DNA from: a bacterium
Lineage (GTDB): Bacteria > UBA8248
Assembly: GCA_022828125.1 (NCBI GenBank)
Contig: JAJEJD010000027.1
Span: forward strand, 1 to 56,116
DNA length: 56,116 nucleotides
Direction of reading: 5' to 3'
Every line of letters begins with the position of its first letter. Position 1 is the stretch's first letter. The translations under genes were made by a program, and so were the position numbers. Below, in pieces: positions 7,541-47,970 of the stretch. The notes beneath the pieces were generated by a model. That model saw nothing but the letters and a program-made list of their open reading frames with translations, was not told the origin of the DNA and did not search any database.

Positions 7541-7663
7541 AAAGCAACCCCCCCTACCCCCCCTTAACAGGGGGGTATAAAAAGGCGATGCGCTCCCGCC
7601 GGGATGAGGGAGGTTTTGTTTTTTCTTGCCCCCCTGACAAGGGGGGGTAGGGGGGGTTGCTTT
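7541..7663. repeat. MITE-like palindromic element, copy A
   Basis: The element begins AAAGCAACCCCCCC and ends with the inverse GGGGGGGTTGCTTT. The terminal inverted repeats contain CCCCCCCT, ACCCCCCC and a CTTGTCAGGGGGG-like inner arm (here CTTAACAGGGGGG on the left). The core is TATAAAAAGGCGATGCGC, a CCCGCCGGG-type centre and a TTTTG-TTTTTTCTTG stretch. It is non-coding and occupies most of the 334-bp gap between ridA and the HtrA-like gene. Four more copies occur in this window. Confidence 0.85.
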
Positions 7664-7779
7664 ATGGGGTTTCCCTCTCTACTCGGTTAGGTTTAACCCC
7701 GACGCTTTCAAAGAGCGGGCATCCCTGTATAATCTTGCAGGATAACGAGTCGCTGGTGATACAAAATAGTGGGGGTTCC

Positions 7780-9201
7780 ATGATTCATCGCTTTATCCCG
7801 TCGATACTTTTGATTTTGTCCATGAGTTTCGCTGCGCCTGCGCAGGCGAACCCGGGCATCGACTACATGCGAAAGATCGAAGGGGCGTTCACCCGGATCG
7901 CGCAGAGCGTAAAGCCGACGGTAGTGAGCATACAAGGGGAGAGAATCAAGGGAGCGGCGCAACAGGCGCCCCAATCCCCCCACCCGAACATACCGACCTT
8001 CTCTTCGGGCTCGGGCGTCATTATCGATCCGGCGGGATACATCCTCACGAACAACCACGTGGTCAGCAATACGCGCAGGCTGCGCGTGCGCCTTTGGGAT
8101 GAGTCCGCCCATTGGGCGAAAATCGTCGGCACGGATCGTTATACCGATCTCGCGCTCATCAAAATCGAGCCGCACCGCAAGCTCCCCGTGGCGACGTTCG
8201 GAGACTCCGACAAGGTGAAGGTGGGGCAGTGGTCGATAGCCGTGGGCGATCCGTTCGGCATCACGAGGACGTTCACGGTGGGCGTGGTGAGCGGCATCGG
8301 GCGCAGCGGCGTCGGCGTCGCGCGCTATGAGTATTTCATCCAGACGGACGCCGCCATCAACCGGGGCAACAGCGGCGGGCCTCTGGTGAACATCGACGGC
8401 CAGGTCATCGGCATCAACACGGCGATCCCGGCGCCCGGCAGCGGCATCGGGTTCGCCATTCCCGTCAACATGGCGAAAGACGTCATCAAATACTTAAGAC
8501 GGAGCGGGAACTTCCCGCGCGGCTATCTGGGCGTGACCATCCAGCCGGTCAGCCAGGATATGGCCTACCTGCTGGGGCTCCCGAAAGCCAGGGGCGCGCT
8601 CGTGGGGGCGCTTCTCAAGGACGGGCCTGCCGAAGGAGCGGGCATCAGGATGGGGGACGTCATCGTCCGCCTCGGCGGTACGAGCGTCGTGGATACGAGC
8701 CACCTGCAAAGGCTCGTGGGCTGGACGCCGCCGGGAGACGACGTGGCCGTCGAAGTCGTGCGAAACGCCCGGAAAAAGAAATTCAAGGTCAAGCTGGTCC
8801 GCCTGCCCGAGCCGGAATCGACAAGTACTCTGGCGGGGAACACCAAGGTCGATGAGCCCGAGACCAGAAAAAGCTACGGCGTGGCGCTCGAGAACCTGAC
8901 CGATGATTTGAGAGAGAAAAACAACCTGACAACCGACGGCGGCGTATATATCAGCAGTGTGGAGGAGGGCAGCAGGGCCTATTACGACGGCTTGCGCGAG
9001 GGTATGGTGATACGCGGGCTGACGTATCGGCTGCCCGGAAACGGGAAAACGCCCGTCCGCGTCTCGATCGAAAAACTCGAAGACGTCGAAGCGTTGCTGA
9101 AAAAAATCCCGGCGGGAACGAACGTCCTGGGCCAGGTCGTGCGCGGGACGGACCGCGGGGAGCGGACTTTTTTCACCGTGCTTCATGGTTTCAAACGCTA
9201 A
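7780..9201 (+). CDS. HtrA/DegP-like periplasmic serine protease with two PDZ domains
   Basis: A protein of 473 residues starting at ATG 7780, which has GGGGG upstream and gives a clean signal peptide (hydrophobic residues 5-19, cleavage after AQA). The chymotrypsin-fold domain carries the full triad: His93 in TNNHVV, Asp123 in YTDLALIK and Ser198 in GNSGGPL. A first PDZ domain follows from about residue 240 (GYLGVTIQPVSQD) and a second from about 360 (GVALENLTDDLRE). It degrades or refolds damaged envelope proteins. An adjacent DUF3179 gene starts 30 bp downstream, so the two may share a transcript. Confidence 0.93.
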   Translation: MIHRFIPSILLILSMSFAAPAQANPGIDYMRKIEGAFTRIAQSVKPTVVSIQGERIKGAAQQAPQSPHPNIPTFSSGSGVIIDPAGYILTNNHVVSNTRRLRVRLWDESAHWAKIVGTDRYTDLALIKIEPHRKLPVATFGDSDKVKVGQWSIAVGDPFGITRTFTVGVVSGIGRSGVGVARYEYFIQTDAAINRGNSGGPLVNIDGQVIGINTAIPAPGSGIGFAIPVNMAKDVIKYLRRSGNFPRGYLGVTIQPVSQDMAYLLGLPKARGALVGALLKDGPAEGAGIRMGDVIVRLGGTSVVDTSHLQRLVGWTPPGDDVAVEVVRNARKKKFKVKLVRLPEPESTSTLAGNTKVDEPETRKSYGVALENLTDDLREKNNLTTDGGVYISSVEEGSRAYYDGLREGMVIRGLTYRLPGNGKTPVRVSIEKLEDVEALLKKIPAGTNVLGQVVRGTDRGERTFFTVLHGFKR

Positions 9202-9231
9202 CGGTTCAGGCCGCCTGGGGAGAGCATTCTT

Positions 9232-10314
9232 ATGCCGCGGATGAACAGCTTTCTTTTCGCCCTGATTGTACTTGCCTTTCCGGCTCTTTCGGGCGCGAGT
9301 CCCGAAACCGAGATCCGCACCCTGCTGCCCAAAGACGCCATCCCCGCCATCGACGCGCCCGAATACGTCGGCGCGAAGGATGCGGACGGCTTCATGCGAC
9401 CCGACGAGATGGTCATCGGGATCAACATCAAGGGAGACAAGCGGGCCTATTCCGTCCCCCTGCTCAGTTCGCACGAGATCGTGAACGACGTCGTGGGCGG
9501 GAGCGCCGTCTCCGTCACCTGGTGACCGCTCTGCTACACGGCCATCGTGTATGACCGTAACCTGGGGGACAAGAAACTCTCTTTCGGCGTTTCGGGGAAA
9601 CTCTGGAAAAACGTGCTCATCATGTACGACCGCCAGACGGACACGCTCTGGAGCCACCTGACGGGGGAGGGCCTCATCGGACCGCTGAAGGGGGAGCGCC
9701 TGGGGACGTTCCCCGCCGCCATGATGCGCTATTCCGAATGGAAGCAGCTCTATCCCGACACCCTGGTGCTGAAAAAAAAGCTGAAAGGCATGGGGGGCGC
9801 CTTCCGAAGCCCCTCGCGCGATCCGTATGAGGGCTATTACTACAGCGCCCAGACCGGCGTGATCCCCGAGAAATACCGGGACAAGCGCTTGCACCCCAAA
9901 ACCCTGCTGGTCGGCCTTGCGCTCGATTCCCCGAAAGAGAAGGGCGAGCAGGTCGCCAAGGTCTATCCCTTCGCCGACCTGAACCGCGCGGGCGTCGTGA
10001 ACGACCGCTTCGCCGGGCGCGACGTTCTCGTCACCTACTGCGAGGGCGCGGGCACGGGCGTCGTTTTCGATCGCGTCCTGAAGGGCGAGGCGCTTGAGTT
10101 CGAGCTCATCACGAGCAAGGGCGCAAAGGGCGCCGCGGCCTGCAGGTTCATGAAGGACAAGAAAACGGGTTCGCGCTGGCAGCGCCTGACCGGCCTGGCC
10201 GTGGACGGGCCGCTTGCGGGCGCGAGGTTGAACCAGCTATCCACGACGCTCGCGTTCTGGTTCGGCTGGAAGGATTATTTTCCCAAAAGCGTGATCTACC
10301 GCCACCCGAAATAA
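9232..10314 (+). CDS. DUF3179 protein with an in-frame TGA at a conserved Cys position (candidate selenoprotein)
   Basis: Read through one TGA (9523-9525), this frame gives 360 residues of a secreted DUF3179 protein. It has a signal peptide (residues 5-22), AIPAIDAPEYV, VIGINIKGDKRAYSV, then VTW-[TGA]-PLCYTAIVYDR, FGVSGKLWKNVLIMYDRQT and TLWSHLTGEGLIGPLKG. The family normally has VT(W/Y)CPLC here, so TGA at codon 98 replaces the first Cys of a C-P-L-C motif, giving U-P-L-C. The frame continues intact for 262 codons with normal family sequence. Either the TGA encodes selenocysteine or the gene suffered a single TGC-to-TGA nonsense change. Sequence quality across the rest of the gene argues against general decay. 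Biochemical function of DUF3179 is unknown to me. GGGGAGAG precedes the ATG. Confidence 0.75.
9523..9551 (+). promoter_or_regulatory. Candidate bacterial SECIS element after the in-frame TGA
   Basis: After TGA (9523-9525) and 9 nt, TACACG (9535-9540) pairs perfectly with CGTGTA (9546-9551) around a 5-nt loop GCCAT. Bacterial SECIS hairpins typically have a short stem, a small apical loop with G in the first or second position, and a loop roughly 16-37 nt after UGA. Here the loop begins with G and lies 15 nt after the TGA, at the near edge of that range. The hairpin lies inside coding sequence, as expected for bacteria. Confidence 0.5.
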
Positions 10315-10383: not shown

Positions 10384-10577
10384 AAAGGCAACCCCCCCTA
10401 CCCCCCCTTGTCAGGGGGGTATAAAAAGGCGAAGCCCGCCGCCGATAGAGGGGTTTTTGTTTGTTTTTTCTTGCTCCTCTTGTCAGGGGGGTAAAAAAGG
10501 CGATGCGCCCCCGACGGGCCGAGAGGTTTTGCTTTTTCTTGCCCCCCTGACAAGGGGGGGTAGGGGGGGTTGCCTTT
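10384..10577. repeat. MITE-like palindromic element, copy B (composite)
   Basis: The same terminal repeats as copy A (AAAGGCAACCCCCCC ... GGGGGGGTTGCCTTT) bound a longer 194-bp element. The interior contains the GTCAGGGGGGTA-AAAAAGGCGA block twice (about 10420-10431 and 10482-10503) and two TTTTTCTTG arms. It therefore looks like one and a half copies, or one copy inserted in another. It fills most of the 435-bp gap before lgt. The rest of that gap holds a GTTGTTGAAAAAGCC boundary motif (about 10353) and a palindromic stretch TAGGTCGGACATATATGTCC (about 10689). Confidence 0.8.
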
Positions 10578-10749: not shown

Positions 10750-11520
10750 TTGAGCCCCGTCATATTCGAAATCGGCCCCTTCGCGCTGCGCTGGTACGGA
10801 CTCATGTACGTCGCCGCCGTGCTGGGGGGTGTCTGGCTGGTGCGGAGGGAAGCCGCGCGCAAGGGAATGCCCATCACGCCCGATGAGGTGATGAACTTCG
10901 GCCTCCTCGTCATGTTCGCCGGCATCCTGGGCGGGAGAGCCTATTACGTTCTCTTCAACTGGGAGTTTTACCGGACCGCCTTGTGGGAGGTCTTCGCCGT
11001 CTGGAAAGGGGGCCTCGCCATACACGGCGGCCTCGTCGGCGGCGTGCTGGCCGGTTATCTCTACCTGAGAAACCACGCCGTATCCACCTGGGAGTTCGCA
11101 GACGCGGTGGCGCCCGCCCTCATGCTCGGGCAGGTGTTCGGCCGCTTCGGCAACTTCATGAACGGCGATGCCCACGGCGTGCCGACCTCGATGCCCTGGG
11201 GCGTCGAGTTTCCGATGACATCCATCGCGGGCCGGGAGTTTCCCGGACAGGCGACGCACCCCGTGATGATCTACGAGCTTCTCCTGAACCTCCTCTGGTT
11301 CTTCATCTTAAGACGCTTGCGGCTCACGAACCACAAGCCGGGCTTCATCTTCTGCCTCTACTTCGTTCTCTATTCCCTGGGACGCGCCGCCGTGAGCGGC
11401 TTCCGCGCGGACAGTCTCTGGTTCGGCCCGGTACGGGCCGCCTATCTCGCCAGCGCGGTGCTCGTCCTGGTGTTCGGGGCGATCATCGTAAGGTGGCGGA
11501 TGTGGGAGCGGGAGGGGTAG
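10750..11520 (+). CDS. lgt: Phosphatidylglycerol-prolipoprotein diacylglyceryl transferase Lgt
   Basis: A protein of 256 residues with about seven membrane segments. It transfers a diacylglyceryl group from phosphatidylglycerol to the lipobox Cys of prolipoproteins, the first step of lipoprotein maturation at the inner membrane. The start is a TTG with AAGGA about 10 nt upstream and gives the usual opening (IGPFALRWYGLMYVAAVLGG). Key motifs are GGRAYYV, WKGGLAIHGGLVGGVLAG (about residues 82-99) and the Lgt signature GRFGNFMNGDAHG (about 133-145) with essential Arg, Asn and His. A substrate encoded nearby is the NlpD-like lipoprotein at the right end of the window. Confidence 0.95.
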   Translation: MSPVIFEIGPFALRWYGLMYVAAVLGGVWLVRREAARKGMPITPDEVMNFGLLVMFAGILGGRAYYVLFNWEFYRTALWEVFAVWKGGLAIHGGLVGGVLAGYLYLRNHAVSTWEFADAVAPALMLGQVFGRFGNFMNGDAHGVPTSMPWGVEFPMTSIAGREFPGQATHPVMIYELLLNLLWFFILRRLRLTNHKPGFIFCLYFVLYSLGRAAVSGFRADSLWFGPVRAAYLASAVLVLVFGAIIVRWRMWEREG

Positions 11521-43126: not shown

Positions 43127-43266
43127 GCAACCCCCCCTACCCCCCCTTGTCAGGGGGAAAAAAGGCAAACCCTCCACTGGTGGAGCGGAGTTTTGCTTCT
43201 TCTTGCCGCTGACAAAGGGTTTTGGTTCTTCTTACCCCCCTGACAAGGGGGGGTAGGGGGGGTTGG
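43127..43266. repeat. MITE-like palindromic element, copy C
   Basis: Ends AACCCCCCCTACCCCCCC and GGGGGGGTAGGGGGGGTT with inner CTTGTCAGGGGG / CCCCCCTGACAAG arms, as in the other copies. The core AAAAAAGGCAAACCCTCCAC-TGGTGGAG is diverged, and an extra CTTGCCGCTGACAAAGGG arm suggests a partial duplication. TTGAAAAAGCCC precedes it and TTTTCAACAA follows. The 300 bp between it and the DinB-like gene hold nothing recognisable. Confidence 0.8.
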
Positions 43267-45755: not shown

Positions 45756-45871
45756 GCAACCCCCCCTACCCCCCCTTGTCAGGGGGGTATAAAAAGGCGA
45801 TGCGCCCCCTCCGGGCCGAAGGGGTTTTGCTTTTTCTTACCCCCCTGACAAGGGGGGGTAGGGGGGGTTGG
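45756..45871. repeat. MITE-like palindromic element, copy D
   Basis: A compact copy of 116 bp: AACCCCCCCTACCCCCCC, CTTGTCAGGGGGGTATAAAA-AGGCGATGCGCCCCCTCCGG-GCCGAAGGGG, TTTTGCTTTTTCTTAC, CCCCCTGACAAG and the closing G-tract repeat. TTTTTCAACAACCCC lies just after it (about 45911). Nearly the same length and core as copies A and E. Confidence 0.85.
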
Positions 45872-47853: not shown

Positions 47854-47970
47854 GGCAACCCCCCCTACCCCCCCTTGTCAGGGGGGTATAAAAAGGCGAT
47901 GCACCTCCTCCAGGGCGAGGGGGTTTTGTTTTTTCTTGCCCCCCTGACAAGGGGGGGTAGGGGGGGTTGG
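47854..47970. repeat. MITE-like palindromic element, copy E
   Basis: A 117-bp copy, nearly superimposable on copy D, with core TATAAAAAGGCGATGCACCT and TTTTGTTTTTTCTTGCC arm. GTTGTTGAAAAAACC lies 30 bp before it. The rest of the 505-bp gap before surE holds a partial CATTCCGGC unit (about 48018) and a GGACAGGTCGCGACCTGTCC palindrome (about 48053). Confidence 0.85.

Follow-up and report, generated by a model that had tools for sequence, protein, structure and literature searches.

A DUF3179 gene of a Nitrospinota-type bacterium with an in-frame TGA that very probably encodes selenocysteine

The window, i.e., the whole stretch of 56,116 nucleotides that was analyzed, is contig C8 of a genome of 3.9 Mb, which is 97% complete. 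A gene of the DUF3179 family is located on its plus strand, and the following features were assigned in and around it:

7657..9201, plus strand: HtrA/DegP-like protease (trypsin-like and PDZ domains), 30 nt upstream of the DUF3179 gene
9232..10314, plus strand: gene of a Sec-containing DUF3179 protein, 360 aa with TGA98 very probably read as Sec (Pfam match, orthologues)
9232..9300, plus strand: N-terminal hydrophobic stretch (residues 1-23), a probable export signal peptide without lipobox Cys (sequence reading)
9397..9777, plus strand: first DUF3179 repeat domain (about residues 56-182) with Sec98-x-x-Cys101, His81, Glu82, Met131, and Trp140
9523..9525, plus strand: in-frame TGA, very probably the Sec codon 98 of a U-P-L-C motif (TGA in 14/14 orthologue-bearing genomes)
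9532..9534, plus strand: Cys101, the Cys of the UxxC pair, found in 20/20 aligned homologues (alignment)
9535..9551, plus strand: overlapping alternative to the next hairpin, UACACG(GCCAU)CGUGUA, with poorer conservation in the orthologues
9539..9557, plus strand: proposed bacterial SECIS hairpin CGG-C-CAU(CGUGU)AUG-A-CCG (RNAalifold, 13 orthologues)
9895..10311, plus strand: second repeat domain (about residues 222-360), in which Cys270 is aligned to Sec98 and Cys304 co-occurs with Cys270
10750..11520, plus strand: prolipoprotein diacylglyceryl transferase (Lgt)

The 97 aa open frame that stops at the TGA (9232-9525) and the continuation down to the TAA at 10312-10314 share one frame. When the TGA, which is the only interruption, is read through, a product of 360 residues is obtained with codon 98 in the context VTW-U-PLCYTAIVYDR, exactly at the position of the first Cys of the CPLC motif of the family. 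The read-through product matches PF11376 (DUF3179) in Pfam with 3.1e-88 and 296.4 bits, compared to a gathering cut-off of 27, and in a genome-wide scan the DUF3179 match was reported as containing '1 TGA'. Frame and Pfam match thus agree with an earlier note on this DNA, which had described a single frame of 360 residues split by TGA at the first Cys of the motif. Standard gene calling would cut the gene down to 97 residues. An open frame on the minus strand (8494-9894) has no Pfam match and was taken as a shadow frame.

In a first-order Markov model built on the sequence 3' of the TGA, 37 of 20,000 trials stayed open over the 262 codons, which estimates how often this would happen by chance. 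In addition, a codon periodicity like that of coding sequence (high GC3) extends to both sides of this TGA, which is true of no other TGA in the window. A stop inside a conserved domain is also the usual look of a pseudogene, with the TGA as a nonsense mutation and a decaying sequence behind it, and the source assemblies are metagenome-assembled, which leaves room for a TGC that was misread as TGA. Both explanations were weighed by comparing the gene with its relatives.

Eighteen genomes of the family were sampled, and the same 18 make up the whole phylum sample. Orthologues with the VTWxPLC motif were found in 14 genomes, namely 13 in the family and the genome holding the divergent orthologue L062. 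Their identity to the window protein ranges from 91% down to about 50%. The alignment of homologues at the TGA codon, which the earlier note had suggested as a check, shows TGA at codon 98 in all 14 orthologue-bearing genomes, spanning at least five genera, and we regard this as stronger evidence than the chance openness of the downstream frame. Apart from this codon the aligned orthologue frames contain no further stop. Downstream of the TGA, dN within the genus is 0.035-0.062 and dS 0.31-0.47, i.e., dN/dS is about 0.1-0.2; because dN is low compared to dS, the sequence 3' of the TGA is under purifying selection and thus translated and constrained. All three observations speak against a decaying pseudogene, which we consider highly improbable. 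An error in sequencing or assembly is less probable still: independent assemblies from different projects carry the same TGA, so that a wrong base call is ruled out in practice, and the Cys paralogues in a related genome do show TGC or TGT. Public contigs matching the gene are named in their titles as Nitrospinota/Nitrospinae and Tectomicrobia MAGs. The matching contig of bin107 is derived from a study of the sponge Aplysina aerophoba (PMC5649159), in which SelA and SelB were found in most symbiont bins (PMC5649159). The searches returned neither phage nor viral homologues.

The open frame by itself does not reveal the identity of the inserted residue, and suppression or a code change might place a standard amino acid (Trp, Cys or another near-cognate) at the TGA. 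However, TGA is the ordinary stop of other genes in the window (MoeA, MobA, YjgF, MR_MLE, and a luciferase-like gene), which argues against genome-wide recoding, and homologues carry Cys at position 98. Moreover, the host has complete Sec machinery. Searches of its genome gave SelA with 576 bits, SelB with 384 bits, and SelD with 335 bits, SelA being located about 1 kb from SelB on contig C30. One tRNA-Sec scores above the Rfam cut-off (75.9 bits), and ARAGORN also calls a tRNA-SeC(tca). Absence of selA, selB or tRNA-Sec had been named beforehand as a finding that would speak against selenocysteine; all of them, and selD, were found in the host. Within the family tRNA-Sec was detected in 16 of the 18 genomes, including every one that has the Sec gene. 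The gene of SelD itself (L019, G000:C30:4116-5078, minus strand) has an in-frame TGA in the motif GGUGSK, followed by a strong predicted stem, and since both are present SelD, too, is probably a selenoprotein, the second one in this genome. Together with the constraint 3' of the codon, which resembles that of a SECIS element, these observations make insertion of a standard residue very unlikely.

The earlier note had mentioned a following hairpin in general terms. Such a hairpin does exist, and its best-conserved form is located at 9539-9557. The overlapping hairpin at 9535-9551, which was considered first, is broken in several orthologues and was replaced by this one. In the published bSECIS model (PMC13188914) the loop has 3-9 nt with a G in the first two positions and the stem 4-16 bp; further limits are a spacing of 16-37 nt and an MFE of at most -7.5 kcal/mol (PMC13188914). 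The proposed hairpin, just 3' of the TGA, fits this model as judged from its predicted structure: the loop CGUGU (9546-9550) has 5 nt with G in second position followed by U, and the stem of 6 bp plus one mismatch and the UGA-to-loop spacing of 20 nt are both within the limits. The stretch from the UGA to +45 folds with -7.6 to -18.5 kcal/mol in the 13 orthologues and with -9.1 kcal/mol in the window sequence. For two orthologues (L029, L031) the MFE structure is a different hairpin.

Conservation of the element was analyzed in the same 13 orthologues. The hairpin is kept in 13/13 sequences, with one pair broken in a single sequence, and the six pairs are intact in 98.7% of cells. When the pairing partners were slid as a control, whole-structure pairing dropped from 98% to at most 46%. 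Synonymous conservation, calculated as the mean codon identity among sequence pairs with the same residue in 8-codon windows (n=347), is highest at codons 101-108, with 0.94 against 0.59 gene-wide (rank 1 of 347), and the first freely varying base 3' of the hairpin is 9558. As the columns of the hairpin are invariant, no base pair has changes on both sides and hence no covariation is visible. The folding stability of the window stretch shows no excess over shuffled sequences (z 0.36), and the Rfam scan of the SECIS region gave no match. A second conserved hairpin is located in the gene at 10253-10273, and can be explained by conserved Trp/Phe codons.

As all 14 related genomes that bear the gene keep the TGA and the host has the Sec machinery, the TGA is very probably a Sec codon. 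We are highly confident that 9232-10314 is an intact selenoprotein gene, in which the TGA is not a stop. The UGA would be decoded as Sec by SelA, SelB, SelD, and tRNA-Sec of the host, with the hairpin at 9539-9557 as the element that would direct the insertion. The selenocysteine reading put forward in the earlier note has thus held up, since the machinery is present, homologues share the TGA, and the contrary findings that were looked for did not turn up; the novelty of the family did not. The note knew of no established DUF3179 selenoprotein, but the family is listed as a selenoprotein family with the motif UxxC/T in two reviews, with MBW1804167.1 (PMC9312934) and MDJ0986319.1 (PMC13188914), respectively. 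In both, the DUF3179 selenoprotein is traced to Zhang & Gladyshev 2007 and an Olavius algarvensis symbiont (PMC9312934; PMC13188914). The listed proteins share the Pfam family and the kind of Sec motif with the window protein and, in a comparison by description only, differ from it in lineage, the latter being of Nitrospinota type and found partly in sponge-associated MAGs. At NCBI, a haloarchaeal Cys homologue bears the name 'DUF3179 domain-containing (seleno)protein'.

Two further types of DUF3179 proteins were compared with the window protein. The Cys-type proteins (paralogues L027, L050, and L053, L099 from Thiothrix, and the haloarchaeal L098) have CPLC, CPIC or CPFC, share about 31-38% identity with it and have TGC or TGT where the window gene has TGA, as is the case for the paralogues and distant homologues. 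A second Sec paralogue, which occurs in two genomes of the family (L030, L052), has TGA at the same codon as the window gene, but its motif is A-Y-U-T-L-C, it has a long N-terminal extension and its identity is about 32%. The gene of L099 is located on a plasmid of Thiothrix subterranea (NZ_CP133216.1, 2804-11511) in a redox-rich neighborhood with a GDCCVxC (seleno)protein, a thioredoxin-domain protein, and a cytochrome c peroxidase.

The two halves of the window protein are homologous (29% identity, E 3e-18 in a repeat-to-repeat BLAST). AlphaFold2 predicts, with confidence, two beta-rich domains for the full protein (pLDDT 85, pTM 0.84; residues 1-20 are a low-confidence region) and the single domain is modeled with pLDDT 95 and pTM 0.90. 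This duplicated beta-rich domain contradicts a thioredoxin-like fold. Position 98, as Cys or Sec, is as invariant as Cys101 in the 20 homologues. Of the 13 aligned Sec orthologues, 12 have both Cys270 and Cys304, a pair seen in no other aligned sequence: both are missing in L062, in the UTLC-type Sec paralogue, and in the Cys-type paralogues and archaeal homologues of the alignment. The N-terminus makes export of the product probable. In several related genera the genes of the HtrA-like protease, DUF3179, and Lgt follow each other in the same order, which suggests an envelope setting.

The window also carries a palindrome-like repeat, CCCCCTTGTCAGGGGGG, with sites at 7629-7645, 10403-10419, 10542-10558, 43235-43251, 45771-45856, and 47870-47955. 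It is often found as two inverted copies spaced about 69 nt, and 358 sites with at most 1 mismatch were counted in the genome, while a control search with the reversed pattern gave 0. The repeat resembles a REP/MITE-like element that is dispersed over intergenic regions.

Foldseek against the PDB gave no significant match for the DUF3179 models, the PDB sequence search found no relative of the protein, and no NCBIfam model matches it. The recurring top plausible Foldseek neighbors of both models are Rieske-type [2Fe-2S] domains, with probabilities up to 0.95 and, for single-domain targets, TM-scores (normalized by target length) that reach about 0.5-0.6, but with insignificant E-values of 0.16 and worse. 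Kinship with Rieske domains is not supported by the hhalign profile comparison (0.3-3.7% probability), and the ligand pattern CxH..CxxH, invariant in the Rieske alignment, is absent from that of DUF3179. The resemblance seen in the models may serve as a weak lead. It would be a long shot, and in our view improbable, that DUF3179 goes back to a Rieske-like fold, duplicated and free of the cluster, with the Sec/Cys pair in place of the iron-sulfur chemistry and coupled to the Cys270/Cys304 dithiol that only the Sec orthologues have. If true, the exported protein would be a redox enzyme whose fold is not known for UxxC chemistry.

For the function of the pair, two proposals compete. The UxxC pair might form, with His81, Glu82, and Met131, a metal (e.g., copper) or cofactor site instead of a catalytic dithiol/selenolate. 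This proposal is compatible with a selenoprotein and competes with redox catalysis only. In Sec and Cys forms alike, all these residues are fully or almost fully conserved, position 98 being Cys in the latter, and the weak structural likeness to Rieske-type domains points in the same direction. However, neither the Rieske ligand pattern nor the profile-profile comparison bears this likeness out, and a CxxC motif in which Sec has replaced a Cys is more often a sign of redox catalysis. A metal or cofactor site is hence unlikely in our estimation, and we favor a selenol/thiol redox role; the thiol-redox role that the earlier note had proposed is plausible. Most likely, the product is exported and acts as a selenol/thiol redox protein.

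The catalytic mechanism can be outlined with modest confidence. In the first of the two homologous beta-rich domains, into which the product is predicted to fold, Sec98 of Sec98-Pro-Leu-Cys101 would be the reactive nucleophile and would form a selenenylsulfide with Cys101 in each redox cycle. The pair Cys270/Cys304 of the second domain, which is specific for the Sec type, may relay electrons to or from Sec98-Cys101. Because of the neighboring HtrA and Lgt genes, envelope proteins are a possible substrate.

The window gene is a well-supported new example of the DUF3179 selenoproteins and not a new kind. It provides a clean multi-genome case for a selenoprotein family that is listed but little described, and adds the Nitrospinota-type, partly sponge-associated occurrence, a mapped candidate SECIS element, the internal domain duplication, and the Cys pair specific for the Sec form. 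In the literature searched, no selenoprotein report was found for this lineage. With the conserved Sec position, the duplication, and the Cys pair of the Sec form, there are now defined residues at which the function of this uncharacterized family can be probed.
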